Source: Bradyrhizobium sediminis
GTDB taxonomy: Bacteria; Pseudomonadota; Alphaproteobacteria; Rhizobiales; Xanthobacteraceae
NCBI RefSeq assembly: GCF_018736085.1
Contig: NZ_CP076134.1
Location: forward strand, 1,250,501-1,314,500
DNA: 64,000 nt
Reading direction: 5' to 3'
Below are positions 8,242 through 64,000 of the stretch, one piece after another (positions within the stretch are counted from its first letter, which is position 1; each line of letters begins with the position of its first letter). The notes under the pieces are model-generated. The model did not search any database. It saw nothing but the letters and a program-made list of their open reading frames with translations, and was not told where the DNA came from. A program made the translations under genes and the position numbers.

Positions 8242-9001
8242 ACTTCAAACGGCGATGCGGGCGAGTCTCGTTCACCGGGACGGGCAGGCGGTTGCCGCGA
8301 TGCTCGCCCGGCACATCGGCGCGGACCGGCTGGATGTCTATCGCAATACCTTCATCCATACCCTGACCAGGGCGCTCCGGTTGTCCTTCCCGATAACGGA
8401 ACGACTGGTCGGCGGGGAGTTCTTCGAAGGCGCCGCGCAGATCTTCGTTGCCCAGCATCCGCCGCGGGCGGCATGGCTCGATCAGTATGGCGGCGAATTC
8501 GCCGGCTTTCTGCGTTCGCTCCCGCAGGCGAGGTCGCTGGTTTATCTCAGCGAGGTGGCGGAGCTGGAATGGGCCGTGAATGCTGCGCTGCACGCCGCGG
8601 ACGTATCGCCGCTGGACGTTGCCGCTCTCAGCGCCGTCGAACCCGAAAGCCAGGGACTGGTCTCCTTCGTTGCCGATCCCTCGATCCGATTGTTGCGGCT
8701 GGAATACCCGGTCGACGTCATATGGCGCGCAGTGCTCGCCTCCGACGACGATGCGCTGGGCAGCGTCGATCTCGGTTCCGGCCCGATCAAGCTTCTGATC
8801 GAGCGACGCGCGACCGGCGTTGAGGTCGAGCGGCTCACCGATGAGGCCTGGCGCTTCCTGTTGGCGCTTTGTGCCGGCCGATCCATCGAATCGGCCCTCG
8901 ACGATATCAAGGATTTCGATTGCACGACGGCGCTGGCGGAGCATCTCGCGCTCGGCAGGTTTGCCGAATTCGTATTGCCCGCAACACCGGCTGCCGAGTG
9001 A
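8225..9001 (+). CDS. bufC: DUF2063 partner protein (BufC/GigB-like)
   Basis: 258 residues from the ATG at 8225, which lies inside the last 17 bp of bufB, so translation is coupled. The N-terminal DUF2063 domain (about 1-100) contains YRNTFIHTLTRALRLSFP. The protein should present the precursor peptide to the DUF692 enzyme. The order DUF2282-DUF692-DUF2063-DoxX is the same as in the gigPABT operon of Cupriavidus. Confidence 0.88.
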   Translation: MPTLLELQTAMRASLVHRDGQAVAAMLARHIGADRLDVYRNTFIHTLTRALRLSFPITERLVGGEFFEGAAQIFVAQHPPRAAWLDQYGGEFAGFLRSLPQARSLVYLSEVAELEWAVNAALHAADVSPLDVAALSAVEPESQGLVSFVADPSIRLLRLEYPVDVIWRAVLASDDDALGSVDLGSGPIKLLIERRATGVEVERLTDEAWRFLLALCAGRSIESALDDIKDFDCTTALAEHLALGRFAEFVLPATPAAE

Positions 9002-9011
9002 GGAAGACCGC

Positions 9012-9500
9012 ATGACGGACGCTGCCAGAACCACTCAGCCGTCCCGGGGGATTTCCGGCATGCTCTGGGACATCCGCCGCGCGCTCGACGGCGTCAGCTA
9101 TACCTGGCTGGCGCTGCCGCTGCGCTTTGCGGTCGCAACCATATTCTGGAATTCGGCGATGGCGAAGCTGGCGAACTGGGACACGACCTTGTCCCTGTTT
9201 GCCGACGAGTATCAGCTGCCGCTCATTCCTCCGGTCATCGCGGCCGATGTGGCGACGGCTGTCGAACTGACCGCGCCCGTCCTGTTGCTGCTCGGCCTTC
9301 TGACGCGGCCGGCAGCCCTCGTCCTGCTCGGCATGACCGCGGTGATCGAGATATTCGTCTATCCCCTGGCATGGCCCACGCACATTCAGTGGGCGGCAAT
9401 GCTGCTGGTCTTGCTGTGCCGAGGTCCCGGCGCGCTGTCGGTTGATCATTGGCTGTTGGGCCGCTTTGGACCGCAGGTTCTTGCGCAAAAGAGTCCGTGA
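9012..9500 (+). CDS. DoxX-family membrane protein (GigT-like)
   Basis: 162 residues with four transmembrane segments after a 30-residue cytoplasmic head; the FWNSAMAKL motif in the first segment is typical of DoxX. It starts 10 bp after bufC with AGGAAG as ribosome binding site. DoxX proteins are often linked to thiol or quinone redox chemistry. Here it is the fourth gene of the bufferin operon and may pass electrons for oxidation of the precursor peptide, which is inference. Confidence 0.85.
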   Translation: MTDAARTTQPSRGISGMLWDIRRALDGVSYTWLALPLRFAVATIFWNSAMAKLANWDTTLSLFADEYQLPLIPPVIAADVATAVELTAPVLLLLGLLTRPAALVLLGMTAVIEIFVYPLAWPTHIQWAAMLLVLLCRGPGALSVDHWLLGRFGPQVLAQKSP

Positions 9501-9560
9501 CCGAGCGTAACATTTTCGCCCTCAAGATCGAAACTCCCTGAACCAAGATAGGAGAATTTC

Positions 9561-9968
9561 ATGTTGTCCCGCCGCTCAATTCTGGTCGCCTCCCTCGTTG
9601 CAAGCTTCCTCGTGATGGCGCCCGCGCTTGCCGAAACGGCGCCGGCATTCGATGCCAAGGTTTTTGATGCCAAAATCTTTGCCGACGCGCAGAAGGCCGG
9701 CAAACCGATCCTGATCGCGATCCACGCGTCCTGGTGCCCCACCTGCAAGGCGCAGGCGCCGATCCTCAGCGAGCTCAGGGCCGATCCCAGGTTCAAGGAC
9801 CTTGCCTACTTCGTCGTCGACTTCGACAGCCAGAAGGATGTAGTCAAGCGCCTCGGCGCCAACATGCAGTCGACCCTGATCGCCTTCAAGGGCGAGAAGG
9901 AAGAGGGACGTTCGGTCGGCGACACCAGGCGGGCGTCGATCTACGCGCTGGTCGAGAAGTCGATCTAG
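9561..9968 (+). CDS. periplasmic thioredoxin-like protein
   Basis: 135 residues. A signal peptide with a twin arginine (SRRSILVAS, cleavage after ALAE) is followed by a small thioredoxin fold with the active site WCPTCK near residue 58. Downstream PILIAIH and FVVDFD fit the core strands. The order thioredoxin, TlpA-like, CcdA suggests that CcdA supplies electrons to this protein across the membrane. It is 60 bp from the DoxX gene and probably in the same transcript. Confidence 0.85.
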   Translation: MLSRRSILVASLVASFLVMAPALAETAPAFDAKVFDAKIFADAQKAGKPILIAIHASWCPTCKAQAPILSELRADPRFKDLAYFVVDFDSQKDVVKRLGANMQSTLIAFKGEKEEGRSVGDTRRASIYALVEKSI

Positions 9969-9970
9969 CC

Positions 9971-10636
9971 TTGCCGACCTTGCCAGGACAACTCCGCAGC
10001 CGCGAAGCAAGCAGCGTCCGGTCCCCGGGGCCGGCAGCCGGGTTGCCTTCGCGGCGCAGCGCCGTCGCCGGCGGACTGGCCGCAGCCGGATCCTGGCTCT
10101 TGCCGGACAGCGTTGTGGCGGCCCAACCAGCCCTGCCTCCCTCATTCACGTCGGGAAGGCATCAATTCACGCTTCTCTCTCCGCAGCGTATCCTGCCGTC
10201 CGTCCGTCTCTTCAGTCTCGGCGGAGGGTCGTTCGACCTTGCCACGCTTCGCGGTCAGCCAATTCTTCTGAATTTCTGGGCGACGTGGTGTGCCGCCTGC
10301 CGGATCGAACTGCCAATTCTTGACCAACTCGCCGAACCAACGCGCAACGACGACTTGAAGGTCATCGCCGTATCGGAAGATCGAGTTGGCCGGGAGCAGG
10401 TAAGCCGCTTCGTCCAATCCCTTTCGATTCGAAACCTCCCGATCTACCTGGATCCGAACGGCTACGTCGCCCACTCGGACCCGGACAACAGGACCGAAGC
10501 TCCATTTGCCCTTTACGGAATGCCGATCACCTACCTGATCGCAAGTTCGGGCCGGATCGTCGGCTACATGCCCGGTGCGGCGAACTGGGCCGAGCCGTCG
10601 GCAAGCGCGCTCATCGAATACCTCGCCGGCGCGTGA
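9971..10636 (+). CDS. TlpA/ResA-like periplasmic thiol-disulfide oxidoreductase
   Basis: About 221 residues. The frame has no ATG at its beginning. I placed the start at the TTG at 9971, two bases after the preceding stop; a TTG at 9980 is the alternative. A twin-arginine signal (PSRRSAVAGG, near residue 30) precedes a TlpA/redoxin domain whose active site is TWCAACR (about residue 107). The extended N-region before the RR motif is longer than usual. It probably reduces disulfides in the periplasm, fed by the CcdA homologue next to it. Confidence 0.75.
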   Translation: MPTLPGQLRSREASSVRSPGPAAGLPSRRSAVAGGLAAAGSWLLPDSVVAAQPALPPSFTSGRHQFTLLSPQRILPSVRLFSLGGGSFDLATLRGQPILLNFWATWCAACRIELPILDQLAEPTRNDDLKVIAVSEDRVGREQVSRFVQSLSIRNLPIYLDPNGYVAHSDPDNRTEAPFALYGMPITYLIASSGRIVGYMPGAANWAEPSASALIEYLAGA

Positions 10637-10672
10637 CGAGATGAAGATGGTCAACAGAGGCGGCTTGATGCG

Positions 10673-11395
10673 ATGACGATCGGCCATACGTTCCTGGCAT
10701 TCGCAGCAGGGGTTCTTTCGATCCTTTCGCCCTGCGTGCTGCCGATCCTGCCCGTTGTTCTCGGCACCGCCGCGTCGAGCCATCGGCACGGCCCGCTGGC
10801 GCTTGCCGCGGGCCTGTCGCTCTCGTTCGTGGCCATCGGATTGTTCCTGGCCACCATCGGTCACGCCATCGGCCTCGATGCGGAACGGCTTCGCTATGTC
10901 GCGGCCTCGCTGGTCATGATCGTCGGCGCCGTGCTGCTGTTGCCGCCCTTGCAGGCGCGGCTGGCGGTTGCCGCCGGGCCGATCGGCAATTGGGCCGACA
11001 GCAGGTTCGCCGGCAACCGCAGCGCCGGCATCGCCGGGCAATTCTGGATCGGCGTTCTGCTCGGTGCGGTCTGGAGTCCCTGCGTCGGGCCGACATTGGG
11101 GGCCGCGTCCCTGCTTGCGGCCCAGGGCACGAACCTGGCGCAGGTCGCGCTCACGATGTTGGCCTTTGGCGTCGGCGCGGCGCTTCCCCTGCTGGGGCTC
11201 GGATGGCTTTCGAGGGAAACCATGGTGCGCTGGCGCAGCAGCCTGTTGTCGGCCGGCAGCGGCATGAAATCCGCGCTCGGCGCCGTGCTGCTGATCGTCG
11301 GCGCGCTGATCCTGACCGGGATGGATAAGGCGGTCGAGGCCGCGCTGGTCGAAGCCTCTCCGGCATGGCTGACCGATCTCACCACGCGCTTCTAA
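10673..11395 (+). CDS. ccdA: CcdA-type membrane electron carrier
   Basis: 240 residues with six transmembrane segments. The paired cysteines lie in SPCVLP (near 19) and SPCVGP (near 141), the hallmark of CcdA/DsbD-gamma proteins, which move electrons from cytoplasmic thioredoxin to periplasmic thiol proteins. Last gene of the thiol-redox block behind the bufferin operon. It may serve the two thioredoxin-fold proteins just upstream rather than general cytochrome c maturation. Confidence 0.88.
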   Translation: MTIGHTFLAFAAGVLSILSPCVLPILPVVLGTAASSHRHGPLALAAGLSLSFVAIGLFLATIGHAIGLDAERLRYVAASLVMIVGAVLLLPPLQARLAVAAGPIGNWADSRFAGNRSAGIAGQFWIGVLLGAVWSPCVGPTLGAASLLAAQGTNLAQVALTMLAFGVGAALPLLGLGWLSRETMVRWRSSLLSAGSGMKSALGAVLLIVGALILTGMDKAVEAALVEASPAWLTDLTTRF

Positions 11396-11410
11396 CCCCC
11401 ACAAACAAAA

Positions 11411-11432
11411 ACCCCGCCATTTGCGGCGGGGT
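11411..11432 (-). terminator. rho-independent terminator of ctrA
   Basis: An 8-bp stem (ACCCCGCC with GGCGGGGT, loop of 6) is followed on the minus strand by a T run. It sits between the convergent ccdA and ctrA and could act for both. Confidence 0.75.
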
Positions 11433-11478
11433 CCAGTCTGGGAGGAGAGAGCCAGAGGCCCTCGGTAGAGCTCTTCGA

Positions 11479-12180
<702 letters not shown>

Positions 12181-12545
12181 GCCAGTCCCCTATAGTCGCC
12201 GCTCCGGGCGTCAGGTCGGCCGCACTTGCGGCACTCAAAACGCCTTTGAACAACTGATTCGGATCCTGACGACATATGGTTAACAAAATCTGATTCCTGT
12301 TCGCAAGGTCTTTCAGTGCAATTTTCATCGAATCGCCCTAAGATATTGCGGTGAAGCAAGTTTTCGTAACCACTCCCGTTCAGTTTTCACATTAAGAGAC
12401 GGGCCTAACCGACTCTCGCGACTCGTCCTTCTTCTGATGGGCGAGCGCTCTCAGTCACCAAAGACAGTGACGCAATGATTAACGATGCGGGTAAACACGA
12501 AGTTAAGGGTAGGGCCCTAAAGCGCTTAAACTTAAGGTTTTCGCA
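12181..12545. other. ctrA-fliI intergenic region
   Basis: 365 bp without a gene, AT-richer than its neighbours. Several TTAA half sites occur, mostly within the last 70 bp before fliI. The nearest to a CtrA box is TTAA at 12479 followed eight bases later by GTAA. I see no exact TTAA-N7-TTAA pair. Promoters for both genes must lie here. Confidence 0.5.
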
Positions 12546-13871
12546 ATGAAGGCGCTCGCCGAGCAGATCAGCGACATCGACGGCGTCAATATATATGGCC
12601 GGGTTGTGGGCGTCCGCGGCCTGATGGTCGAGATCGCGGGGCCGATCCATGCGATGTCGGTCGGCGCCCGCATCGTCATCGATACCGGCGGCAACCGTTT
12701 CATTCCCTCCGAGGTCATCGGCTTTTCCGGCAACAACGCCGTGGTGATGCCGTTCGCCGGCCTCGAAGGCGTGCGCCGTGGCTGCCGGGCGGTGATCGCC
12801 AATGCCGCAAGCCAGGTGCGGCCTTCGCCGTCCTGGCTCGGCCGCGTCATCAACGCGATGGGTGAGCCGATCGACGGCAAGGGGCCGCTGCAGCAGGGCG
12901 CCTCGCCGATGCCCTATCGCAACTCGCCGCCGCCGGCGCATTCGCGCAAGCGGGTCGGTGCGCCGCTCGATCTCGGCGTGCGCTCGCTCAATACCTTTCT
13001 CACCTGTTGCCGCGGCCAGCGGCTCGGCATCTTCGCCGGCTCCGGCGTCGGCAAATCGGTGCTGCTGTCGATGCTGGCGCGCAATGTCGATGCCGACATC
13101 ACCGTGATCGGACTCGTCGGTGAACGCGGCCGCGAGGTGCAGGAATTCCTGCAGGATGACCTCGGCGAGGAGGGCCTGGCGCGCTCGGTGGTGGTGGTGG
13201 CGACCTCCGACGAGCCTGCGCTGATGCGGCGGCAGGCGGCCTATCTGACCTTGGCCATCGCGGAATATTTCCGCGACGAAGACAAGGACGTGCTGTGCCT
13301 GATGGATTCGGTGACGCGCTTTGCCATGGCGCAGCGCGAAATCGGCCTGTCGGCGGGCGAGCCGCCGACCGCCAAGGGCTATACGCCGACCGTGTTCACC
13401 GAGCTGCCGAAGCTGCTCGAGCGCGCCGGACCGGGGGTCGGCGCCGGCACCATCACCGGTATTTTTACGGTGCTGGTGGACGGTGACGATCATAACGAGC
13501 CGATCGCCGACGCGGTCCGCGGCATTCTCGACGGCCATATCGTGATGCAGCGCTCGATCGCCGAGCGCGGCCGCTATCCGGCGATCAACATTCTCAAATC
13601 GGTCTCCCGCACCATGCCGAAATCGGCCGATCCGGCCTATCTGCCCGTCATTACCCGGGTCCGCCAGGTGATGGCGACCTATGCCGACATGGAGGAACTG
13701 ATCCGGCTCGGGGCCTATCGCCAGGGCTCCAGCGCTGAGGTCGACGAGGCGATCCGGCTGCACGAACCCCTGGAAAGCTTCCTGCGCCAGGCCAAGGACG
13801 AGACCACCGGCCTGAACGAGGGCTACCGGCAGCTTGAGCAAATCCTGAAGGACTTGGAAACGGAACGCTAA
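12546..13871 (+). CDS. fliI: flagellar export ATPase FliI
   Basis: 441 residues. Beta-barrel domain at 1-95, then the ATPase core with Walker A GSGVGKS (near 164) and the Walker B region [13 protein letters not shown] (near 250). The segment [20 protein letters not shown] identifies the type III/flagellar branch of F1-like ATPases. It powers export of flagellar subunits and works with FliH and FliJ. The FliJ gene follows after 109 bp. Confidence 0.97.
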
Positions 13872-15169: not shown

Positions 15170-16045
15170 ATGATGGCCTACAGCGAAGACCATATCGCGC
15201 TCGCCGCGGAATATGCGCTCGGCACCCTCGATGCCGACGAGCGCGCGCAGGTCGAGACCATGATGTCCGTCGACAAGGACTTCACGGCGATGGTCGAGGC
15301 GTGGCAGCGCAAGCTCGGCGTCCTGAACCAGATGGTCGGATCGATCGAGCCGAGGCCCGAGGTCTGGGACAAAATCAAGACCGCGATAGGACATTCCGAG
15401 CCGCAGTCGCCGCTGGTGCTTCCCGAAGCGCCGCCACCGCCGGCCGCGCCCGAGGTCAGCGAGCCCGCTGCGCCCGTCGACACCTCCAACGTCATCCGGC
15501 TGTCCGCACAGGCCCGGCGCTGGCGCAACATCGCGACGCTCACGACCGCGATGGCCGCAGCACTGGTGGCGATGATCGCGACCCAGCTTTACCAGCCGGA
15601 TCTGCTGCCCGACGGCCTGCGCCCGAAGGTGCGGACCCGGGTGGTCGAAGTGAAGACGACCGTTGCGCCGACGCCGTCGGCGCAATATGTCGCCCTGCTG
15701 CAGAAGGACAGCGGGTCGCCCGCCTTCATTCTCACGGTGGACGGCACCACCAAGAACTTCACGGTGCGTCGGGTCGGCGCGACCCCCGAGCCCGGCAAGA
15801 GCTACGAACTGTGGCTGGTCTCCGACAAGCTGCAGCGGCCGCGTTCGCTGGGCGTGATCGGCGGCAATGATTTCACGATGCGGCCGGCGCTGGCGTCCTA
15901 CGACACCGACACGGTGAACAAGGCGACCTATGCCGTGACGGTCGAGCCGGAAGGCGGCTCGCCGACCGGCGTCGCCACCGGCCCGATCGTGTTTACCGGC
16001 AAGCTGATCGAGAGCGTTCCGCCGGCGACTGCTGCGCCCCGCTGA
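15170..16045 (+). CDS. RskA-family membrane anti-sigma factor
   Basis: 291 residues. The N-terminal zinc-less anti-sigma region (1-90) begins with HIALAAEYALGTLDADER, as in RskA. A proline-rich linker at 85-110 and one transmembrane segment near 125-145 follow. The periplasmic RskA domain (160-285) contains PEPGKSYELWLV. Release by regulated proteolysis is expected from the family. It starts 17 bp after the sigma gene; a second ATG follows the first directly. Confidence 0.9.
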   Translation: MMAYSEDHIALAAEYALGTLDADERAQVETMMSVDKDFTAMVEAWQRKLGVLNQMVGSIEPRPEVWDKIKTAIGHSEPQSPLVLPEAPPPPAAPEVSEPAAPVDTSNVIRLSAQARRWRNIATLTTAMAAALVAMIATQLYQPDLLPDGLRPKVRTRVVEVKTTVAPTPSAQYVALLQKDSGSPAFILTVDGTTKNFTVRRVGATPEPGKSYELWLVSDKLQRPRSLGVIGGNDFTMRPALASYDTDTVNKATYAVTVEPEGGSPTGVATGPIVFTGKLIESVPPATAAPR

Positions 16046-16060
16046 GGCAGCCGACAAAAG

Positions 16061-19342: not shown

Positions 19343-19855
19343 TCATTCCGCCACGATGGTTCTTGCGCCCATCGCGGTCTTGAGGTGTTCGAGCGGCAAG
19401 GGGCCCCCGGACTTTAGGGTCTGGATCGCGATGTTACTGCGTACTTCGCGTACCTGCGGCAGGTTGAGCAGCTTTCCCACCAGAAAGCGCTGGTAGTCAG
19501 CGAGCTCCGGTACGACGACTTCAAGGAAATAGTCCGCCTCACCCGAGACGAGATGACACGCTACGACTTCCGGCATCTCGACGACGGTCTGCTCGAAGGC
19601 CATTGCGCAGTCATTGGCGTGGCCATTGAGCTTGACGCCGATGAAGACCGAAAATCCCAGACCAACGCGGTCCCGCTGCAGCGCTGCGCGATAGCCTTGA
19701 ATATACCCTTCCTGCTCCAGCCGCTTGACGCGGCGCAGGCACGGCGATGGCGACAAGCCGACCTTGTCCGCGAGTTCGACGTTGCTCAGGCGGCCGTCGG
19801 ATTGAAGTTCGGCGACGATGCGGCAATCGATGGCATCAAGGTCGTGTTTTGGCAT
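19343..19855 (-). CDS. Lrp/AsnC-family transcriptional regulator
   Basis: 170 residues. N-terminal helix-turn-helix (about 8-60, with LADKVGLSPSPCLRRVKRLE) and a C-terminal RAM/AsnC effector domain (70-150). Usual family length. Such proteins sense amino acids. No amino-acid gene lies next to it; the NTF2-like gene is divergent on the right and a target cannot be named. Confidence 0.9.
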   Translation of the reverse strand: MPKHDLDAIDCRIVAELQSDGRLSNVELADKVGLSPSPCLRRVKRLEQEGYIQGYRAALQRDRVGLGFSVFIGVKLNGHANDCAMAFEQTVVEMPEVVACHLVSGEADYFLEVVVPELADYQRFLVGKLLNLPQVREVRSNIAIQTLKSGGPLPLEHLKTAMGARTIVAE

Positions 19856-44629: not shown

Positions 44630-44677
44630 TGGTGGGCCCGGCAGGACTCGAACCTGCAACCAGACCGTTATGAGCGC
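44630..44677 (-). other. 3' fragment of tRNA-Met(CAU): probable attachment site
   Basis: On the minus strand it reads anticodon loop CTCATAA, 3' anticodon strand CGGTC, a complete T-arm (GCAGG-TTCGAGT-CCTGC), the acceptor 3' strand and CCA. The 5' strand of the anticodon stem does not pair (CGGCG where GACCG is needed) and no D-arm follows, so only the 3' half is present. The integrase stop lies 32 bp away. This is what remains when an element inserts at the anticodon loop; the restored tRNA should be at the other end, outside the window. Confidence 0.88.
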
Positions 44678-44708: not shown

Positions 44709-45917
44709 TTATTTTCCAGGCATCTTGACGACGTTCGTGCTCATTTCTGTCACTCGTTTCTGAGGCATAACTGAGGCGGTAGGCTTGGCCGCAATCTTGG
44801 CTACGGCATCTTTCATATGGTCCGGGTGATGGTGGCCATAGACCTCGATCAGCATCTTCACCGACATCCCAAGGAAGCCGGCCGACTCCCAAGGATCGGC
44901 CGCATTCTGCATCAGCCAAGTTGCTGCCGTATGACGCAGGGTGTGGGGAGATACGCCCTTTCCTAGTTCGGCCAGTGTGACGGCTCGCTTGAAAGCGGTT
45001 TTAACGGACTTGACCGGCTGCCCATTGAACTCAACAAAGTATCGCTGGATGATGCCGCAGCGGTGCCACCGTCGGAGGTGCGCCAGCAAACGAGAAGGGA
45101 CGCGGACGGGGGTTTGGCGCTTATTCGTTTCTTGCTTGCCGTGTGCGCGGCGGTAGTAGACGCCGCGCTCCAGGTCAACAAATGAGCGGCCAATGGCAGG
45201 GGTAGGGGATGCTGACGCAATAGCCGCGGCTCGGGTGCCGGTGTAGAGACCAATCAAGATGAATCTGGCCAAATGCCGAAGTGGTCGCTTGTCCGTCTCG
45301 ATTTTCTGACCCTTCAGCGGTCCGCGATGTACCGTCTGAATTTCGCGAGCTCGCCAGCAGGACCAAATAAGGGACGCCGCTTCGGCTCGTGTCAGCCATC
45401 GATCACGTGGCGGTCCCTTCCTAGGCAGCTTTACCTTGACGACGCCGCGGTGAAAGCCTTCGTCCGCGTGGTGTTCGACAGCTGCACGAAGATCCTCTAG
45501 GTCGCGTCGAGCACCACCGGTATTTCCGCGTTCCTTAACGTATTCGTTGCACTTGGCCTTCGTGATCTCCGAAAGCGTAAGCTTGCCCCAAAAATCTTTG
45601 AGGCGGCCCATGCGGGCGATGTACTTCTTGGCATCGGGATTATCGATGTACAAGTCAGGGCGGTCGTCGATAAAGATCGAAAGTACGTCCGCGATCGGAA
45701 TTCGCTCTAGCTCGCGCTCCTTCCGTTGCGGCGCGTATTTCTGAGCGATGTAATCCTTGAGCGCCCGCTCAGCCTTTGCAACTTCGCGCTCAGAGCATCC
45801 AGTGGCGTAGTAACCAATGCCATCTCGGATGACCCATGTTGCCTGATGGGTGAGCCGGCCATTCTTGTATCGCGCCGGCCTGAGATGGAGTCGGGCGCCT
45901 TTGCTTCTACGCGACAT
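44709..45917 (-). CDS. int: tyrosine recombinase (integrase) of the element
   Basis: 402 residues. Core-binding region at about 70-160 and catalytic domain at 170-365. Catalytic residues: R229 in GLYTGTRAA, H325 and R328 in PHTLRH, and Y360 in EVYGHHHPDH. The usual LGH histidine is replaced by methionine (LGMS, near 351), as in a known subgroup. It reads towards the tRNA fragment and should recombine at the tRNA-Met anticodon loop. Confidence 0.93.
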   Translation of the reverse strand: MSRRSKGARLHLRPARYKNGRLTHQATWVIRDGIGYYATGCSEREVAKAERALKDYIAQKYAPQRKERELERIPIADVLSIFIDDRPDLYIDNPDAKKYIARMGRLKDFWGKLTLSEITKAKCNEYVKERGNTGGARRDLEDLRAAVEHHADEGFHRGVVKVKLPRKGPPRDRWLTRAEAASLIWSCWRAREIQTVHRGPLKGQKIETDKRPLRHLARFILIGLYTGTRAAAIASASPTPAIGRSFVDLERGVYYRRAHGKQETNKRQTPVRVPSRLLAHLRRWHRCGIIQRYFVEFNGQPVKSVKTAFKRAVTLAELGKGVSPHTLRHTAATWLMQNAADPWESAGFLGMSVKMLIEVYGHHHPDHMKDAVAKIAAKPTASVMPQKRVTEMSTNVVKMPGK

Positions 45918-49668: not shown

Positions 49669-50013
49669 TCAATACTCCGACGAAAACATGAGCGTCAGCA
49701 CGCGCGTAGTTTTGGTTGGATCGGCGGGGTCTTCCGAGCCCGCCTCCATAGTCTCATCGTAGTAGTCGATCTTCCAAAAGATCGTTTCATCGCCGACTTC
49801 GATGCTGCCGAAATCGTGCTGACCATGCGGGTCGTTTTCCCGATCAAACTCGGAAAACTGTTGAACCGCTAGGACTGCTCTTGCCTGCAGATCAATCGGC
49901 AGCGCTGCGACGCCCGCGGTCATGACAACCCGACCACCAAGGAAGGTGGATCGGAAGAAGTCATTGAGGACACGAATGCGCCGCGACTGATCACTCGCTT
50001 CTGCGGTGCTCAT
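49669..50013 (-). CDS. DUF3768 protein
   Basis: 114 residues. RIRVLNDFFRSTFLGGRVVM near the start, MTAGVAALP and DPHGQHDFGSIEV in the middle, and FWKIDYYD at about 79 match DUF3768, a family common on plasmids and integrative elements and without known function. The stop of the upstream zinc-ribbon gene overlaps its ATG. Confidence 0.85.
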   Translation of the reverse strand: MSTAEASDQSRRIRVLNDFFRSTFLGGRVVMTAGVAALPIDLQARAVLAVQQFSEFDRENDPHGQHDFGSIEVGDETIFWKIDYYDETMEAGSEDPADPTKTTRVLTLMFSSEY

Positions 50014-56005: not shown

Positions 56006-58309
56006 TCAAAGTTCCCTGGCCGCCTTGACCAATGGGTCGGGAGAGGTCATTGGGGCTGCCAGTATTTGACGGACTCGAAATGTTTCGGTTCTATTTGGCC
56101 TCCACAAATCTAAGCCCCGGTATCTTGATTTCTCGGCAATAGAAAACCTCGCAATTAGGTTGAGGACCTCAGGAACGATGCGCTCCGCTCGTGAATCAAG
56201 TGCGCCGCGGTAGAACGCTGCTTCTTGTCGTCCAGAGCCCGGCTGAAGAAAGAGCTTTCTCAGCACGGTTAGGAGTATCTTCAAGCCTTCTGGAATATCC
56301 AAGTGAAGTATCTGAGCAGCTGTATTTCCTCCAAGAACGAATGATGAAACATCACAGTCTCTGAAATTCATGGGAAGATCACTCCCCCCAAAGAAGCCGT
56401 CGAGTGTGCCGAAGACACATTTCTCGAACTGAGGAAGGTTGTCTGGGTGCACATCTCGCGAAATCTCGCAAGTATTAAATAGACAATCCTGAAAAATCAA
56501 ATTTGAGAACTTGCGGGAGAAATCGTCGATCAAGAGATAGTCACAAACCGCGGCTCTAATAATGGCCTTATCTACCAGTGCGACCTCAGGAGAGCGGGTT
56601 AGGATATTTGCCAGATCCATCGCGAGCTGAGAATTTATGTCTGGGTTACAGGCGACGTTGAGCGCGTTCAGAAAGATTGCTGGCTTGATGGTTTGAGCGG
56701 ATATCTTGTTAGAGACAATATTGATTGCGATTTCGCCTAACGGACAGACGACTGACTCGAAGGCGTTTGCCGCAGAAGCGTAGGGATGCTCCACATAACG
56801 AATGACATCGCCCGCGCGAGCAGCATCCGCAATTTGCGGATCCACAAATTCCCGAGAGCTGTCTTCAAGCGAGGAGGGACCTAGCGCGGGAAGTCTCAGA
56901 ATAAATTGCTGTGCGGCGTCATCAGGAGGAAAACCTGCTACATCCCGAAAGGTATTTTGTATTGTTAGGATATCGATTCGGCCTCTTCCATCCTCCGTTG
57001 AGCGTGCAATCGTCGCAAGTCTCTCGATGATCAATCTAACAGTCGTCGGGTCAAGCCGACTATCTTGCTGTGCTTCTCGCTCGCAGATCATAGCCAGTAG
57101 ATGATCCCAACCTTCTGCAGGCCCGAGATCGACCGACTGTTTAGCGGCAGACGCTTGCAAAAATCCTCTTCCCGCCAAATAGGCTAGCAATAGCGGGCGA
57201 CGTGGCATCCAGTCTGGGAGGGGGCTCGCAATTCCCAATAAGCTCAGAAACTCTCTTGCTTGGGCCTCCGAGAAATCTTGGGTGTACAGAATCTGGAAGC
57301 CACGCTCCACCCCCAGCGATTTTGCCATTTCCTTCGTGCTATCGAAGAAGTTGTGGCGACCGGCAACTATGATTGAGGTGTTTGAAGGTGATTCGGACAC
57401 AAATCGCCTAACTAAAGTCATTCCACTGAAACGATGAGCTTGAACTTTTTGTAAAGATCCTCCCCAACCCGTCGTGGCCATTTCGTCGAAACCGTCTAGC
57501 AGCAAGTTGACCAACCCACCACGCCATGCCCTGACAAGGTCGCTCGAGCTACCGGGATAGCCAATAATTCTGGCGTGGCGCTCAAGCGCTTCAACTGGCT
57601 CGGACTGACCCGTATGATCTCTGAGATTCAAATAAACGGGCACGACATGTGAGGTGTTACGAAGGTATGCGTCGTTGCATCTGAAGAAAAAATTACGGAG
57701 CGTCATGCTCTTTCCGGAGCCATACTCACCCAGAAGGACAGTTCGCGTGACACTCCCAGTGATGAGGCCCTGGATGTAGGAGTCCTGATTGATTGCGGTT
57801 TGCGCGGCTTCGTTGAAGAGATCAATTGGAATGATCTTTGCGTCCGTAATGGCGGCCTTGGTGATCGGATCGGCCACACTTCCAAACCGATATGGCACAC
57901 GGCATCTCAAGTATTCGGCGCCATTAAACAGCTGACTACGAAATTGTTCAAAGCCAAGGATTCTTACGCTGTGTTCAAACCTCTGGATCGCCGTTCGCTG
58001 GTCTGCCGTCGGTTCGTCTCTCGTAACGAGCCATCCGTTGACGTGCTTCCGGCTCGTTTTTCGGTACTTTTGGACTAGCTCAGCGGTTTTCTTCGCATCC
58101 TCGACAGCTTTGTCACGCGAACGCGAAATCGTGCACTCAACTACGTGAACAGCATCACGTGTTTCGAACACGCCGTCGCGCTCGCGGTCATCAACGATTT
58201 GAGCGCCGCCGAATTGAGCCTCGGACCAGAGTAGCCGGGCTATTCGTCGAACATCTTTTTCAAAATTCTGTCCAGAGAGCGTCAGCTTAGGCCTCCATAC
58301 GGTCTGCAA
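56006..58309 (-). CDS. NACHT NTPase with nuclease-like N-terminus, candidate defence protein
   Basis: 767 residues with a TTG start at 58309 (no ATG nearby; the ribosome site is weak, so the start is uncertain). Residues 35-60 resemble a Mrr/PD-(D/E)xK nuclease core: D45-G46-V47, then strand and E58-C59-T60, with Thr where Lys is usual. The NACHT core has Walker A GEYGSGKS (194-201) and Walker B LLLDGFDE (269-276), the latter being the NACHT hallmark, then SIIVAGRHNFF near 335. The C-terminal half is helical with a stretch like pentapeptide repeats (LIFQDCLFNTCE). Bacterial NACHT proteins defend against phage. The gene is AT-rich, stands alone, and differs from its neighbours in composition. 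Confidence 0.82.
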   Translation of the reverse strand: MQTVWRPKLTLSGQNFEKDVRRIARLLWSEAQFGGAQIVDDRERDGVFETRDAVHVVECTISRSRDKAVEDAKKTAELVQKYRKTSRKHVNGWLVTRDEPTADQRTAIQRFEHSVRILGFEQFRSQLFNGAEYLRCRVPYRFGSVADPITKAAITDAKIIPIDLFNEAAQTAINQDSYIQGLITGSVTRTVLLGEYGSGKSMTLRNFFFRCNDAYLRNTSHVVPVYLNLRDHTGQSEPVEALERHARIIGYPGSSSDLVRAWRGGLVNLLLDGFDEMATTGWGGSLQKVQAHRFSGMTLVRRFVSESPSNTSIIVAGRHNFFDSTKEMAKSLGVERGFQILYTQDFSEAQAREFLSLLGIASPLPDWMPRRPLLLAYLAGRGFLQASAAKQSVDLGPAEGWDHLLAMICEREAQQDSRLDPTTVRLIIERLATIARSTEDGRGRIDILTIQNTFRDVAGFPPDDAAQQFILRLPALGPSSLEDSSREFVDPQIADAARAGDVIRYVEHPYASAANAFESVVCPLGEIAINIVSNKISAQTIKPAIFLNALNVACNPDINSQLAMDLANILTRSPEVALVDKAIIRAAVCDYLLIDDFSRKFSNLIFQDCLFNTCEISRDVHPDNLPQFEKCVFGTLDGFFGGSDLPMNFRDCDVSSFVLGGNTAAQILHLDIPEGLKILLTVLRKLFLQPGSGRQEAAFYRGALDSRAERIVPEVLNLIARFSIAEKSRYRGLDLWRPNRTETFRVRQILAAPMTSPDPLVKAAREL

Positions 58310-58521: not shown

Positions 58522-59757
58522 TCACTTCGGCCGACGTTGATTGTGGGCTCTGAGAGAGCGGCCGAAATTTCTGCGGCTTTGAGCGACCGTTAGCTCTTTT
58601 CGGTTGAGCGGAAGAAATAGCCGCGGCTCGATAAACGCGACCCGGTTGTTGTCTTCCAAGCGACGCAGCCAAGCCCGGAATGGTGGTTGGTCAACGAGTT
58701 CTGGTGCCGGCAGTGGATGAAATTCGGGTGCCAGCACCTCGGCGTCCGCCGCAGAGACGCGGAACGCCATGAGCGTGCCAACGTTGCCAAGCACTGACGC
58801 ACGCACCGTGGGGGAGAGCTGCTCGGTGTATTGGCCGACGAGGCAGAATCTGGTTTTGAATTTGCGAGACTCTGAGAGGAGGGAGGCGAGCGCATCGGTC
58901 GCGAACGATTGGACCTCATCGATGTGGCAGTAAAAGGGAACACGCTCTTGCTCGGGTATCTGGGAGCGGGCCATAGCGGTTAGCTGCAAATGAGAGATGA
59001 AGAGTGACCCGAGAAGGTTGGCAGCCTGCTCACCAATTTGTCCTTTGGCCAGGTTGGCAATGAGTATTCGGTGATGGTCCATCGCGTAGGCGAGGTCAAA
59101 TTTCGGAGCGTATTGCCCCAGGATATTTCGCACGGGAGGGGAGGCGGTAAACTGTCCAACCTTGTTCAAAATCGGCGCTGTTGCCTCGGCTAAAAGCCGT
59201 TGATCGTAGCTTGGAAATTCCTGCTGCCAGAACCGGGCGACGATGGGGTCCGTGACTTTCCGGACGAGTCGGTCGCGAAACTCCTGGTCAACAAATACGC
59301 GCGATAGGTCGGTCAGCACCGGCCGGGGGCCGGCGAGCAATGCGGAAATGCCCTGAAATAGAAAATATTCGAGCCGCGGTCCCCAGCTGTCGCTCCACAA
59401 GTGTTTGAATGTTGAAACGATGCCGGCGGCGGCGAGCGCGTGCCGCTCTGGCGGTACGCCCGCGAGCGGATTAAATCCAACCGGAAAGTCGGTGTCAGCC
59501 ACATTTAGGTAACAGACATCGTTTGTCCGGCTCGGGGGCAAAGCATCCAATATTGCTTGAGCCAGGTCGCCGTGGGGGTCGAGCACGGCGACACCTTCGC
59601 CCGAACAGATGTCGTGCATTGCTAGGTTAAACAGCGCAGTGCTTTTGCCCGAGCCGGACTTCCCGACAATGTATACATGCCGCTCGCGCTCTTCGGGCGA
59701 GAGAGCAATGCCGCCGCCGGTCGACGATCTGGCGATGATTGGGGGTTGGCGCTCCAT
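58522..59757 (-). CDS. VirD4/TraD-like coupling ATPase
   Basis: 411 residues from ATG 59757; an ATG at 59856 would add 33 residues with no conserved look. Walker A VGKSGSGKST (31-40), then VAVLDPHGD near 56, and Walker B CHIDEVQSF near 278, followed by FCLVGQYTEQL. The type is the DUF87/TraM-recognition class of coupling proteins, but without an N-terminal membrane segment. It should bring DNA to a secretion channel or move it through one. No mating-pair genes are in the window, so the element may be mobilised by another system. Confidence 0.85.
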   Translation of the reverse strand: MERQPPIIARSSTGGGIALSPEERERHVYIVGKSGSGKSTALFNLAMHDICSGEGVAVLDPHGDLAQAILDALPPSRTNDVCYLNVADTDFPVGFNPLAGVPPERHALAAAGIVSTFKHLWSDSWGPRLEYFLFQGISALLAGPRPVLTDLSRVFVDQEFRDRLVRKVTDPIVARFWQQEFPSYDQRLLAEATAPILNKVGQFTASPPVRNILGQYAPKFDLAYAMDHHRILIANLAKGQIGEQAANLLGSLFISHLQLTAMARSQIPEQERVPFYCHIDEVQSFATDALASLLSESRKFKTRFCLVGQYTEQLSPTVRASVLGNVGTLMAFRVSAADAEVLAPEFHPLPAPELVDQPPFRAWLRRLEDNNRVAFIEPRLFLPLNRKELTVAQSRRNFGRSLRAHNQRRPK

Positions 59758-59857
59758 AAATCCGGGACAGCCCCTCGTGCGAAACACCCGCGGATGCGAT
59801 GTGTCGGCCTGAGATCCCAAGAGCTCGTGTTGTGGAGTAGGCCCACCATGGGCCAAA

Positions 59858-60083
59858 TGGAGAAGGGGAGAGGCCCGCCGGGCGTGCTTGTGGAGGAGCG
59901 TTGCCGGCGCGGTACGCAGGGGCTGTCCCGAGCCGTGAGCGGGACCGCCGCTCTATGAAGTATACGGCTGCGTCGAAGTTGGTAGGGTGTGGATAGCCAT
60001 GGTTAGCACATCGCCGATGTGAGTACCGAGGAGCGCCAGCGATCCGCGTGAGAAATTGTGCCTTCAGGTTGGGATCGGCCGAG
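59858..60083. other. non-coding stretch before the structured region
   Basis: GC-rich, no gene. GGCCCA-CCA-TGGGCC is an inverted repeat just left of the VirD4-like gene start. The rest holds no feature I can name. Confidence 0.45.
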
Positions 60084-60407
60084 CTTTACCCCCCGCATTT
60101 GTCGGCAGACCGCACACCGTAGGGCGCCCCAGCGCCCAAGGGCACCCGCCCCAGCGGGTGTGCGGTCGGCGGCGAAGCCGCCCGACCCCGTGCGCCCAGC
60201 CGAGCACCGCAAAGCCTCACGGCTGCGGAGCGCAGCCTCCGCGTGCTCTATCGCGCGGAGGTCGGCGATTTTGCCCGTCCACGGGCAAAATTCGCGGAGA
60301 GCCCCCAGCTCAGCCTAGCTTTGGCAAACGCACGCTACAGCGCCGTGTTTGCAGGCTGAGTGGGGGCACGGGGTCGGGCGGAAAGCCCGACAAATGCGGG
60401 GGGAAAG
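60084..60407. ncRNA. highly structured non-coding element (RNA or origin DNA)
   Basis: Closed by a 17-bp perfect inverted repeat (60089-60105 with 60387-60403), extended by CTTT/AAAG after one bulged base. Inside are: an 11-bp stem (60108-60118/60157-60167) holding two CCCA-loop hairpins; a GGCGGC-GAA-GCCGCC hairpin (60168-60182); a 15-bp stem (60179-60193/60366-60380); and, within that, hairpins at 60221-60237 (7 bp), 60236-60261 (8 bp), 60268-60291 (11 bp) and 60309-60360 (8 bp outer). Some stems compete for the same bases. No ORF here looks real. It could be a large structured RNA, a single-strand origin or oriT. Strand and identity unknown. Confidence 0.7.
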
Positions 60408-60412
60408 AGTGA

Positions 60413-60436
60413 GCACCTGCAAGGATTTGCGGGTGC
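60413..60436. repeat. hairpin next to the structured element
   Basis: GCACCTGCAA-GGAT-TTGCGGGTGC, a 10-bp stem with one G-T pair. Confidence 0.7.
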
Positions 60437-60452
60437 GGAGTAAGGACGCGAG

Positions 60453-60484
60453 GGTACAAACATAGATGTACCCCTGTTTGTACC
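60453..60484. repeat. inverted repeat, operator-like
   Basis: GGTACAAACA and TGTTTGTACC, perfect over 10 bp, 12 bp apart, in the sequence leading to the iterons. Confidence 0.75.
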
Positions 60485-60619
60485 TCAACGATCGCGCCTT
60501 TCCTTATTCAAAGAGAACACACCCTGTGTATTGAATATATTAGATTCTATTAGAGCGGAGCGATGATTTCACAATAGCTTTTGCTTGCAACGTATTTTGC
60601 CGATGTACATCGAAAATCG

Positions 60620-60679
60620 TTGGGTCAAACCCCCCAGGACGTTGGGTCAAACCCCCCAATGTCTTGGGTCAGACCCCCC
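60620..60679 (+). repeat. three iterons with exact 22-bp period
   Basis: TTGGGTCAAACCCCCC begins at 60620 and 60642; a third copy with one change (TCAGAC) begins at 60664. The spacing equals two helical turns, as expected for direct repeats bound by a replication initiator on one DNA face. Confidence 0.85.
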
Positions 60680-60800
60680 GGGTCTGAGCAACGATATCCA
60701 CACCGGACGCAGCCCGTTATTCAACCAGTCTTATGAGAGGTGGCTCGTTGACGGATTTCAATTTGTGTGTCGGAAAACAGATATTGTCCGACGCTTATAT

Positions 60801-60857
60801 ATGGCTCTGTTGAGCCATATTTTGGCGACGCCTTATTTTGTGGCTCTGCTGAGCCAT
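60801..60857. repeat. two related hairpins
   Basis: TATGGCTC-TGTT-GAGCCATA at about 60801-60820 and TGGCTC-TGCT-GAGCCA at about 60841-60856. Both are followed on the plus strand by TTTT, so they can act as terminators on that strand, facing the end of the ParE gene. Confidence 0.7.
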
Positions 60858-60860
60858 TTT

Positions 60861-61139
60861 TCAAAACGGTCGACGCGACGTGTGGCGAATGTGGATCACC
60901 TGCAGCTCCATCCCGTGCGATCGGTAGAAAATTCGGTACGGCAGCCCGGGCACCGCTGCGGCCCAGAAGTCACGATCAACTAGCTTCGGTGCGATATCTG
61001 GAGCGAGTGAAATCCGTCGAATGGCGAGGCGTAAGCGGGCTTCGACGACGCCAGCGATTTCTGGAGAGGCTACTCTGCCGTAATAGCCTGCGATTGCGTC
61101 AATGTCGGCGAGGGCCTGCTCGGAGTACCTAACCCTCAT
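60861..61139 (-). CDS. parE: ParE/RelE-superfamily toxin
   Basis: 92 residues from ATG 61139. Typical ParE pattern: VRYSEQALADIDAIAGYYG at the start, ARLRLAIRRISLAPDIAPKL in the helices, and the C-terminal strand YRIFYRS followed by ELQVIHIRHTSRRP. ParE toxins poison DNA gyrase; other members cut mRNA. Its start overlaps the end of the antitoxin gene by 11 bp, so they are co-translated. In this setting it stabilises the element. Confidence 0.9.
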   Translation of the reverse strand: MRVRYSEQALADIDAIAGYYGRVASPEIAGVVEARLRLAIRRISLAPDIAPKLVDRDFWAAAVPGLPYRIFYRSHGMELQVIHIRHTSRRPF

Positions 61140-61377
61140 GACTCCTGAATTTGGCGAATGCGGCCTCGACGGCCTTCTCTGACGCGAACTGTCCCCTATC
61201 AATTTCCGCTAGCGCAGTGTCCAATACGCGCAATTCCTCCTCGCTCGCGTGGTATTCTCCCGAGCGCCACTCATCAATCTGTCGGGCCGCATTATCGAGC
61301 ATCTCAAGGTCATCCTCAGACCATGAGGCTACCCTTTCGTTTATCTGATTGAGTATTTTATCGGCCTTTTTGCTCAT
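61129..61377 (-). CDS. antitoxin partner of the ParE toxin
   Basis: 82 residues from ATG 61377. Mostly helical and acidic (ERVASWSEDDLEMLDNAARQ). The end FASEKAVEAAFAKFR resembles the toxin-wrapping tail of RelB/ParD-type antitoxins. AGGGAA precedes the ATG, and TATAAT (61384-61389 on the minus strand) lies just before it, so the transcript may start almost at the ATG. It probably represses its own operon. Confidence 0.82.
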   Translation of the reverse strand: MSKKADKILNQINERVASWSEDDLEMLDNAARQIDEWRSGEYHASEEELRVLDTALAEIDRGQFASEKAVEAAFAKFRSHEG

Positions 61378-61384
61378 TTCCCTA

Positions 61385-62902
61385 TTATACCACATTCGGC
61401 CTATCGCTGCCGCCTCGGCGGCTAGCATCCCAGGTGGCTAAGTCATCGATCTTGTCAGGATACCGTTCGGCCGTGATGCGAGCCCGCGCCATGTCAGCCA
61501 GATAGGATTTCATCGGACCACTTCCCTTCTCCCCCAGTTCACTCTGAACGAGAGCCAATATTGCCTGCTGTTCGTTGAGCGGCAGGGACGCAAACAACGC
61601 GTCTGCGGCTCTTCGCCGGTACGTGCTGTACTCGATGCGGTCATCTTCGGCGCGCTTCTCGGCGGCAGCCCGCTCGGCGGTCTTAGCATCGCTCCGTCGG
61701 CGTTCCTGGCGGTTGATATAGCTGGTTAGATACTGCTTAAGGCCTCCAAGCGTCTTCACGTCAAAACTTGTCTTCTTGGCCTCCGAAAGCGCGTAGGAGA
61801 GGAATTGGGGCATCTCATCGAATGAGACCTCAGTCAGTAGAAATTTGGCCGTCTCCACGTCCTTAGACGGAACATAAGGTATGGCGGAGGTCGGCTGGCC
61901 GGTCCTCTTTTCTAGAAACATGTACGCAACCTTGAGCGGCTCGGCTGTTTCCTGTTTGTCGCTTTGGAATTCGAACTGCATTTCTGGCTGATGTCGACCA
62001 CGATAAAAGCGATCGTAATCATGAATAAACGCAATACCCGGACGGAAGGTCAGGATAAGGCCCTTGCCGTCTGCGGCGGCTGCAATGCTGTAGGAAGCCA
62101 GAAAGCCCACTTCGCGCAATTTGCGAAGATGCGACCCTAACTGATCTCGCTCAATGACAGATGGCTGGGTGTGCACGGTGATGCCGCCGAGCCATTCGGT
62201 GCAGATGTCCTCGTAGCGCTTTCTGAATGTCGGTCGTTTGCGCGGATTGTCCGTGTACAAGTTTGCGAAGTGGAAGAAGAGGCGCATGTAGAGCGCTTGA
62301 CCAATCGTACCGAGTTCAGCCATGAGCGTATGATTCAGACACGTAAAATGCTCATCGTTCAGTGACGAAATTATCGGGCGAGCCAGCGTTACCGTGCATC
62401 GCTCAACAGGATCATGCTCGGACTCCCTTCGTTCGAGATACACTTCCGGAAAGATATTGAATGTGTGCTCGGCGAAATGACCTCCACTCGTTTTAAAAGC
62501 GGTACGGACAAAGGCGTATTGAATTTCGTGAAGTGCTCGCGTCAATTCCTCGCTGTCGCGACCACCCCACTGCTTGCGTCCGATTAGGCGGACGAGTTCG
62601 CGTTTCGTGAAAGAGATATCACTCTGGATCGGCCGGCCGTAATTTGAGTGCTTTTTTATCAGCGCCACAAAGATTTTGTGCGCAAGTGGTCCGGGCTGGC
62701 CAAGCGCTGGATCGGGGCGAATATAAACGGCTCTATCTTTAACGTTCGAATTGAGCGCAATCTCTCGTGTTCGTGTCGAAGCGCGCTTCGGATCGTGACA
62801 AAACAATGCACCGGAAACACGCAAGAGCGTGTTCTCCATGTACAGCTTTTCGACTGGGGTAGGCGCTGCCTGGCTCGTCGTTTTCGTTTCGCTTGCTGCC
62901 AT
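61385..62902 (-). CDS. plasmid-type replication initiator protein
   Basis: 505 residues. Contains the sequence style of alphaproteobacterial plasmid replication initiators: VYIRPDPALGQPGPLAHKIF near 55-75, then KRELVRLIG and paired winged-helix-like segments up to about 320 (for example GSHLRKLREVGFLASYSIA near 260). The C-terminal 130 residues are helical and charged with RQERRRSDAKTAERAAAEKR. It likely binds the iterons at 60620-60679 and starts replication of the excised element. The symbol is left open because the exact Rep class is not certain. Confidence 0.78.
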   Translation of the reverse strand: MAASETKTTSQAAPTPVEKLYMENTLLRVSGALFCHDPKRASTRTREIALNSNVKDRAVYIRPDPALGQPGPLAHKIFVALIKKHSNYGRPIQSDISFTKRELVRLIGRKQWGGRDSEELTRALHEIQYAFVRTAFKTSGGHFAEHTFNIFPEVYLERRESEHDPVERCTVTLARPIISSLNDEHFTCLNHTLMAELGTIGQALYMRLFFHFANLYTDNPRKRPTFRKRYEDICTEWLGGITVHTQPSVIERDQLGSHLRKLREVGFLASYSIAAAADGKGLILTFRPGIAFIHDYDRFYRGRHQPEMQFEFQSDKQETAEPLKVAYMFLEKRTGQPTSAIPYVPSKDVETAKFLLTEVSFDEMPQFLSYALSEAKKTSFDVKTLGGLKQYLTSYINRQERRRSDAKTAERAAAEKRAEDDRIEYSTYRRRAADALFASLPLNEQQAILALVQSELGEKGSGPMKSYLADMARARITAERYPDKIDDLATWDASRRGGSDRPNVV

Positions 62903-63648: not shown

Positions 63649-64000
63649 TTACACGTTCCAAGCTCCGGTAATATCCTGTTTGGGCGACGTAGTTGTTAGC
63701 CAATCAGAGACGCGGTCCGTTAGCTCGTTTAGGTTCAATCTGGCTCGACCTCGCAATGCGCATTCCCAAACCTTGAGGATTCTCCAACCATCGCGCTCCA
63801 GCTCAATTTCGGCAGCGATGTCGCGATCGCGATTTCGCAGAATTTTTGCGTTCCAAAAAACGGCGTTCGTCTTTGGCATCACCCCCTTGGGACAATCGTG
63901 GCCGTGCCAGAAGCAGCCGTGGACGAAAATAATAGCTCGGTGCGCGGGGAATACGATATCCGGGGTACCTCGCAGAGTTTTCACGTGCAGACGATAGCGG
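63649..64000 (-). CDS. vsr: very short patch repair (Vsr) endonuclease, cut by the window edge
   Basis: 117 codons visible; the frame is open at the right edge, where it reads RYRLHVKTLRGTPDIVF, so the true start is outside. TPDIV holds the catalytic aspartate, and VHGCFWHGHDCP carries the zinc ligands and His typical of Vsr. VWECALRG near the end is also conserved. Vsr nicks at T:G mismatches produced when 5-methylcytosine deaminates, and its gene usually accompanies a cytosine methyltransferase, which would lie to the right. Confidence 0.9.
   Translation of the reverse strand, partial: RYRLHVKTLRGTPDIVFPAHRAIIFVHGCFWHGHDCPKGVMPKTNAVFWNAKILRNRDRDIAAEIELERDGWRILKVWECALRGRARLNLNELTDRVSDWLTTTSPKQDITGAWNV

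Follow-up and report, generated by a model that had tools for sequence, protein, structure and literature searches.

The described systems closest to the locus studied here are MOBC-type mobilisation regions; the articles on them are cited in this text from excerpts. In pMET1, HPI-ECOR31 and CloDF13 the order is oriT-mobB-mobC, with two nic sites because the nick lies inside inverted repeat 2 (PMC2262945). ICEKp1 joins them by description, and a 1760-bp region between its virB11 and mobB acted as oriT in mating (PMC6761156). An N-terminal membrane segment is essential in MobB of CloDF13 (PMC7431656). TraX, the MOBC relaxase of pAD1 oriT2, combines a winged helix with a restriction-endonuclease-like active site and binds five direct repeats away from nic (PMC12857230). 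A table in PMC5357655 gives the Pfam family PF13814 as the domain of the MobC relaxase. Putative streptococcal integrative and mobilizable elements carry a VirD4-like coupling protein of their own together with a MobC relaxase (PMC5704250, PMC5357655). TdtA, known from transjugation in Thermus, belongs to an integrative element and is a hexameric, HerA-like translocase of DNA; it occurs together with NurA and a restriction enzyme, and a relaxase or oriT is not identified in the part of the article cited (PMC5365140). Because oriTs rarely share sequence (PMC6414798), they are hard to recognise in integrative elements.

The window, a stretch of 64,000 nucleotides of Bradyrhizobium sediminis (contig NZ_CP076134.1), contains a hairpin-packed element for which the original prediction, made from the letters of the DNA, had offered three readings: a large structured RNA, a single-strand replication origin or an oriT. 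The evidence presented here points to the last of these and away from RNA. With a probability of about 80%, the element serves as oriT for an integrative and mobilizable element 26.5 kb long, whose mobilisation module is of the MOBC type. This reading is based on linkage to a coupling-protein-like ATPase gene, on a PF13814 relaxase candidate that this mobile element encodes and on the same architecture in the CloDF13 mobilisation region. Likeness to the oriTs of pMET1, HPI-ECOR31 and ICEKp1 lies, by description, in their gene order and in the two nic sites of inverted repeat 2. TraX of pAD1 and the window candidate have the relaxase family in common, again by description, but the repeat search listed no set like the five of pAD1 inside the window element. 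The gene plan of the streptococcal elements is like that of the window; however, they come from a different phylum, and oriT structure is not described in the excerpts of the two articles cited for them. TdtA is comparable as a HerA-like translocase on an integrative element. A literature search, which drew on parts of articles, returned no description of the architecture reported below in Alphaproteobacteria.

The host island and its genes

Perfect direct repeats of 47 bp bound an island of 26.5 kb that extends from 44630 to 71169 in window numbering, its right end lying beyond the window. The GC content is about 51-62% over 38-71 kb, a stretch wider than the island, versus about 61-71% outside. 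The island holds an integrase, att repeats and a relaxase gene, the last a candidate by family only, and with these it has the makeup of an integrative and mobilizable element. Pfam recognised no mating-pore gene among the island proteins scanned, which were part of all frames. The features are compiled in Table 1.

The product of the ATPase gene 58522-59856 matched PF10412 with 28.3 bits (cut-off 20.5) over residues 48-101 only, and TrwB by sequence with an E value of 4.3e-5 over residues 32-99. It is a P-loop ATPase related to TrwB, as is expected of a VirD4-type coupling protein. No membrane segment was seen in it, the top 19-residue hydropathy being 1.18 compared with 2.31 in a CloDF13-type MobB, and it is for this reason named coupling-protein-like only.

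The relaxase candidate scored 66 bits against PF13814 (cut-off 25.3). Its homologues are named replication-relaxation proteins, one of them, from Bradyrhizobium guangzhouense, being 73% identical. Among the best 50 PDB matches listed there was no nuclease, all places being filled by winged-helix proteins, and a profile comparison of the window relaxase group with MobC was weak (probability 15%). The gene does not directly follow the ATPase gene; it lies on the opposite strand, behind a NACHT-like gene.

Several further genes of the region are recorded as observations. The NACHT-like (STAND) protein of 767 residues between the relaxase and ATPase genes (56006-58309, minus strand) reached 25.7 bits (cut-off 26.7) and gave no match in PADLOC; it is possibly defence cargo. 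A ParE-like toxin is encoded at 60861-61428 on the minus strand with a small family-less gene upstream, which is likely to be its antitoxin. A Vsr-like endonuclease gene (63649-63984) and genes for an AAA protein, an McrBC protein and a C5 methylase, located beyond the window at 7782-12864 of the fetched locus L191, likely form a restriction cluster towards the right end. At the island right end is a frame of 418 residues without a Pfam match. A DUF3768 gene occurs within the island (49672-50013) and also directly beside a related ATPase gene in a Sulfitobacter plasmid (L196, 5184-5714).

Table 1. Features of the island and of the predicted oriT (window numbering)
Feature	Position	Strand	Basis or remark
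Left copy of 47-bp direct repeat (att site)	44630..44676		
Tyrosine recombinase (Phage_integrase), island left end	44709..45917	-	Pfam
Second HerA-like ATPase, 848 aa, serine-rich insertion of ~300 residues	52136..54682	+	
Relaxase candidate, PF13814 Replic_Relax (MOBC), 320 aa, N-terminal winged helix	55016..55978	+	
Coupling-protein-like (TrwB/HerA-type) ATPase, 444 aa	58522..59856	-	
Nested inverted-repeat element, predicted oriT	60086..60406	-	inverted repeats, relatives at same position
P1 3' arm	60086..60105	-	partner of 60387-60406
Hairpin between P2 3' arm and P1 3' arm	60105..60170	-	stem 60105-60118/60157-60170
P2 3' arm	60178..60198	-	second copy of predicted nick boundary, minus strand 60187/60186
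Variable P2 interior with several more hairpins	60199..60360	-	repeats, folding
P2 5' arm (inner long stem)	60361..60381	-	21 nt, 95% complementary to 60178-60198
Core hairpin GTCGGGC-TTTCC-GCCCGAC (minus strand)	60373..60391	-	
P1 5' arm (outer stem)	60387..60406	-	95% complementary to 60086-60105
Accessory hairpin, one T-G mismatch	60413..60436		stem 60413-60422/60427-60436
Accessory perfect 10-bp inverted repeat	60453..60484		stem 60453-60462/60475-60484
Three 22-nt direct repeats (likely replication iterons)	60618..60683		
RepA-like replication initiator	61385..62902	-	PF10134, 26.8 bits, just under cut-off 27
Right att copy, part of tRNA-Met, past window edge	71123-71169		

Anatomy of the nested inverted-repeat element

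Read on the minus strand, the element lies about 230 bp ahead of the coupling-like ATPase gene, which starts at 59856. The 17-bp perfect inverted repeat noticed at the outset is real and forms the perfect part of stem P1 (arms 60089-60105/60387-60403), enclosing an interior of 281 nt. Further stems lie in this interior: a second long repeat, P2, is accompanied by several hairpins, among them 60268-60278/60281-60291 and 60303-60316/60353-60366. The claim that some pairings are mutually exclusive also held, since the core hairpin shares sequence with the 5' arms of P1 and P2 and competes with both. Only the description of two more perfect hairpins beside the element was slightly too strong: the repeat 60453-60484, possibly an operator, is perfect over 10 bp, whereas 60413-60436 contains a T-G mismatch.

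In the usual plan, the P1 5' arm ends in GTCGG and is followed by a hairpin GTCGGGC-loop-GCCCGAC, the second half of which opens P2; on the 3' side, the P2 arm ends in GTCGG and the P1 arm starts with CCGAC. The P1/P2 junction therefore holds four alternating copies of one short motif.

The stability of the fold exceeded chance, as the original prediction had held. Compared with dinucleotide shuffles, the folding energy of 60060-60500 gave z = -10.8 for the plus-strand RNA, -11.3 for the DNA (plus strand) and -9.0 for the minus-strand RNA, and in each of the three tests 0 of 100 shuffles were equally stable. Frames open across the element, such as one of 118 aa on the plus strand, look non-coding by codon-position GC (GC3 0.68, GC2 0.70), in agreement with the view that no reading frame explains the structure. 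A DNA search found the element as a single copy in its own 5.55-Mb genome.

Relatives of the element and linkage to the ATPase gene

Relatives were sought by means of the 58522-59856 ATPase, which was found in 29 of 397 genomes of the order and in 27 of 296 genomes of the family (E up to 1e-30), and at class level in 8 of 385 genomes (E up to 1e-75), the own genome being counted in every ATPase search. The element is real and conserved. Besides the window, 28 relatives were recovered, of which 26 precede such an ATPase gene on the same strand, a count to be read with the fact that most were found by searching near the ATPase. In 21 cases the element lies upstream of the ATPase within the fetched neighbourhood and in five at 1.5-6.8 kb; of the remaining two, L225 is cut by the contig end and L125, a contig of the viral collection IMG/VR, has its element (15800-16047) on the other strand than the ATPase, 4.7 kb from it. 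Except for L125 and for L085, which belongs to a metagenome bin titled Akkermansia, all hosts are from the window's own order. Among the fetched ATPase loci of at least 56% identity, a set that leaves out two partial matches at 60-63% in genome G929, four of five (L162-L165) carry the element; in the fifth, L187, the sequence extends only about 0.5 kb upstream.

Independence is clearest for L002/L150. A DNA search of 197 genomes gave ten weak matches outside the window, of which L002 is a true element by structure; found by the DNA similarity of the element alone, it is located directly upstream of such an ATPase gene. The other nine matches had no core-based element.

A search with the core pattern only yielded 24 places in the 397 genomes and 30 in the 296 overlapping genomes, together 51 distinct loci; the reversed pattern, used as control, gave 8 and 9. 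Of the 51 loci, 15 had P1 as well as P2 (score at least 9), the window included. An ATPase frame of this family was located at most 1.5 kb downstream on the same strand at 9 of these 15 loci versus 2 of the other 36, and those two are elements with a weak P2. Five more of the 15 had a same-strand ATPase further downstream, at 1.5 kb (L246), 1.9 kb (L230), 3.7 kb (L227), 4.9 kb (L244) and 6.8 kb (L229), and in L225, the last of them, the sequence stops 0.7 kb past the core. Five of the 36 have the appearance of cut or decayed copies. Three of these (L205, L221 and L239) stop 101-277 nt after the core, so that P1 cannot show; the other two (L245 and L247, both from G960) have the 5' arms and lack the 3' partner, with a run of N beside the core in L247. 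Most core loci are in genomes that the ATPase search had already reached, and a single genome (G201) contributes two of them on separate contigs, so that the core-pattern and ATPase-based tests are not fully independent.

A motif-free test asked for nested stems with a summed length of at least 22. Of the 65 loci given, four were dropped for short upstream sequence. Such stems were found upstream of the ATPase at 15 of 61 loci (window included), compared with 0 of the 59 loci with enough downstream sequence and 0 of 305 shuffles. Ten of the 46 failing loci have a core-based element that was missed or lies further upstream (L019, L022, L162, L163, L166, L168, L172, L184, L188 and L189). At 36 of the 61 loci, mostly with distant ATPases, neither the motif-free nor the core-based search found an element. 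Upstream of the ATPase in L024, L037, L040 and L185 we observed nested fold-backs with other cores (ACGGC-TAAC-GCCGT in L040), which may follow the same plan and differ in the recognition word; the core-based counts leave out all four, but L185 contributes to the 15 loci of the motif-free test.

Wider searches delimited the distribution. A genome-wide ATPase scan covered 80 of at least 568 relatives, mostly from Patescibacteria, and a viral scan added 17; of these 97 loci (L044-L140), only L085 and L125 had a core-based element, and further nested stems among them had unrelated arms. None of the seven new loci of the class-level search (L155-L161) had the element. L153 gave a match (19406-19799) whose core is degraded and which lies at a great distance from the ATPase; it was taken as chance. 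Plain DNA similarity to plasmids gave matches covering 9-11% of the query, two of which, in a cysP-cysT gap of Thioclava, were likewise ascribed to chance.

The neighbourhoods also bear on whether the element is a replication origin, either a single-strand origin or part of the oriV of a RepA replicon. Iterons and a RepA-like gene adjoin the element, extensive single-strand folds such as those seen here are typical of single-strand origins, and a gene of 209 aa beside rep falls into one cluster with a gene that lies near the element in L141. The original prediction had expected rep genes as the shared neighbour. That role is taken by the coupling-like ATPase instead: the window RepA had no counterpart in 14 neighbourhoods, ten of them with the element, whereas the ATPase cluster was present in all 14. 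Thirteen of these had been picked by the ATPase, and the fourteenth, L150, which had been detected only through the element's DNA similarity, also has it. With the window RepA as anchor no plasmid match was obtained, and the proteins scanned included no recognisable rolling-circle initiator. We consider an origin of replication unlikely, although a secondary replication role after transfer may exist.

Covariation of the stems and selection on DNA

Pairing was analysed in 32 distinct elements, 29 of the window type and three of the CloDF13 type, taken at a loose threshold as the best per locus. At this threshold the finder gave 15 matches in 1.16 Mb of shuffled sequence (none at the strict threshold) and 8 other matches in the real window. 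Weak members of the set are L184 (135 nt) and L166, L169 and L170 (P2 score 7.8), L170 holding a run of N; some elements are closely related, so that the 32 are not independent cases. Pairs 6-13 were 99.2% Watson-Crick in P1 and 89.1% in P2, percentages that are inflated by the choice of register by best complementarity, which builds in some pairing. When partners were swapped between elements, at most 58% (P1) and 54% (P2) were Watson-Crick, and after one arm was slid, 32-51% (P1) and 21-38% (P2). All four pair types occurred at P1 positions 7-11. P1 and P2 covary strongly. The covarying pairs that the original prediction had hoped for in homologues were thus found by a simple pair count, and the conserved nested plan is at odds with its refuting alternative, unrelated palindromes placed next to one another.

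A stable fold of this kind could belong to a large structured non-coding RNA or to a 5' leader whose minus-strand transcript controls the ATPase. The element indeed sits on the ATPase strand at a short distance upstream, and it folds very stably as RNA. However, P1 and P2 of the 32 elements comprise 931 Watson-Crick, 20 G-T, 15 A-C and 31 other pairs. The wobble share of 2%, somewhat lowered by a finder that scores G-T below Watson-Crick, is without strand bias and contrasts with 60 G-U among 788 pairs (7.6%) in 34 minimum-energy-folded tRNAs from the fetched loci. A helix acting as RNA would be expected to accept G-U but not A-C on its own strand; the two kinds of pair are scarce here and similar in number, which favours selection on DNA, single-stranded or extruded. 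The proposed search with Rfam models gave no family at gathering scores over the window. At E values up to 1 over 59800-60900 nothing was matched within the element, and the sole match, PinT at 60747-60821, lies outside it and was judged chance (26 bits, cut-off 60). A leader would be unusually distant from its gene in L227, L244 and L229, where 3.7-6.8 kb separate element and ATPase. An RNA or leader is therefore regarded as very unlikely.

Comparison with CloDF13 and the predicted nick site

The same nested plan occurs at 9650-9783 of CloDF13 (NC_002119), the prototype plasmid of the MOBC class (MOBC1), upstream of mobB. There, P1 is 14 bp long, the core reads GTCAGGC-TCAC-GCCCGAC with one A-C mismatch, and P2 starts at the core. 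Plasmids of Enterobacter sp. and Klebsiella aerogenes typed MOBC keep the plan, and their core GTCAGGC/GCCTGAC is fully paired. The genes that follow in the K. aerogenes plasmid encode a TraM-recognition (MobB-like) protein and then a 'MobC family replication-relaxation protein'. MobC of this CloDF13-like plasmid scored 80.9 bits against PF13814 (cut-off 25.3). In the CloDF13 record (L193), the mobilisation frame 7649-9247 is shorter than in the relatives, perhaps through sequence errors, and PLSDB types the plasmid as non-mobilizable.

Window and CloDF13 resemble each other in the P1/core/P2 plan, in a near-identical core and in a PF13814 relaxase. The coupling-like gene begins about 230 bp from the window element; the coupling-protein gene begins about 240 bp from the element in two CloDF13 relatives and 0.4 kb from it for the listed CloDF13 frame. 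The two elements differ in length, 134 nt in CloDF13 versus 321 nt in the window. The main structural difference is the span of P2, which is 79 nt in CloDF13 compared with 196 nt in the window (84-203 nt across window-type elements). Moreover, MobB of CloDF13 has membrane segments and the window ATPase has none, and mobC follows mobB in CloDF13 whereas the relaxase candidate gene is elsewhere in the island. The window element would be a variant of the MOBC oriT that is enlarged inside P2 and, for such islands, undescribed in the portions of literature searched.

We take the nic sequence of CloDF13 to be GGGTG/GTCGGG. Its place is the P2/core boundary of the strand complementary to the core as written. 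The GTCGGG side at this boundary is common to the window element and CloDF13; the half-site GGGTG is not. By this comparison, a nick is predicted on the plus strand between 60372 and 60373, and a mirror site is predicted on the minus strand at 60187/60186.

The CloDF13 likeness also weighs on a function in double-stranded form, namely a recombination, resolution or partition site bound by a protein that travels with the ATPase. Four alternating GTCGG copies at the P1/P2 junction would suit such a protein, and the ATPase is HerA-like and free of membrane segments, a type of translocase that could act in segregation. Nevertheless, the mobilisation region of CloDF13 has the same plan, and double-stranded binding would not require long covarying stems. 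We give this idea the least credence of those weighed here.

Proposed mechanism and implications

In the oriT reading, the recombinase would excise the island as a circle. The relaxase, with its winged helix and possibly a restriction-endonuclease-like domain, and the ATPase would bind the four GTCGG copies at the junction, and one strand would be nicked at the P2/core boundary. The strand could then be exported via the pore of a helper element. In the recipient, the incoming single strand would refold into P1, P2 and core and so offer the cut site to be rejoined. The additional hairpins within P2 may make the single-stranded fold more stable or serve second-strand synthesis.

A bolder version, which we put forward as speculative and rather improbable, makes the element the cis-site of a distinct transfer system of Bradyrhizobium-like and related bacteria. 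Here the two membrane-segment-free HerA-type ATPases would replace the coupling protein, and the multi-branched P1/P2/core junction, with its exchangeable pairings, would act as a strand switch: its four GTCGG copies would let the site fold and be cut on either strand, so that transfer could start from, or end on, both.

For the favoured oriT reading, the model names a precise nick position. It also raises the question of how a coupling-like ATPase can work with a mating pore when it has no membrane segment. Since the architecture of P1, core and P2 is recognisable both in chromosomal islands of the same order and in enterobacterial plasmids, a simple descriptor of it could find MOBC-type oriTs.
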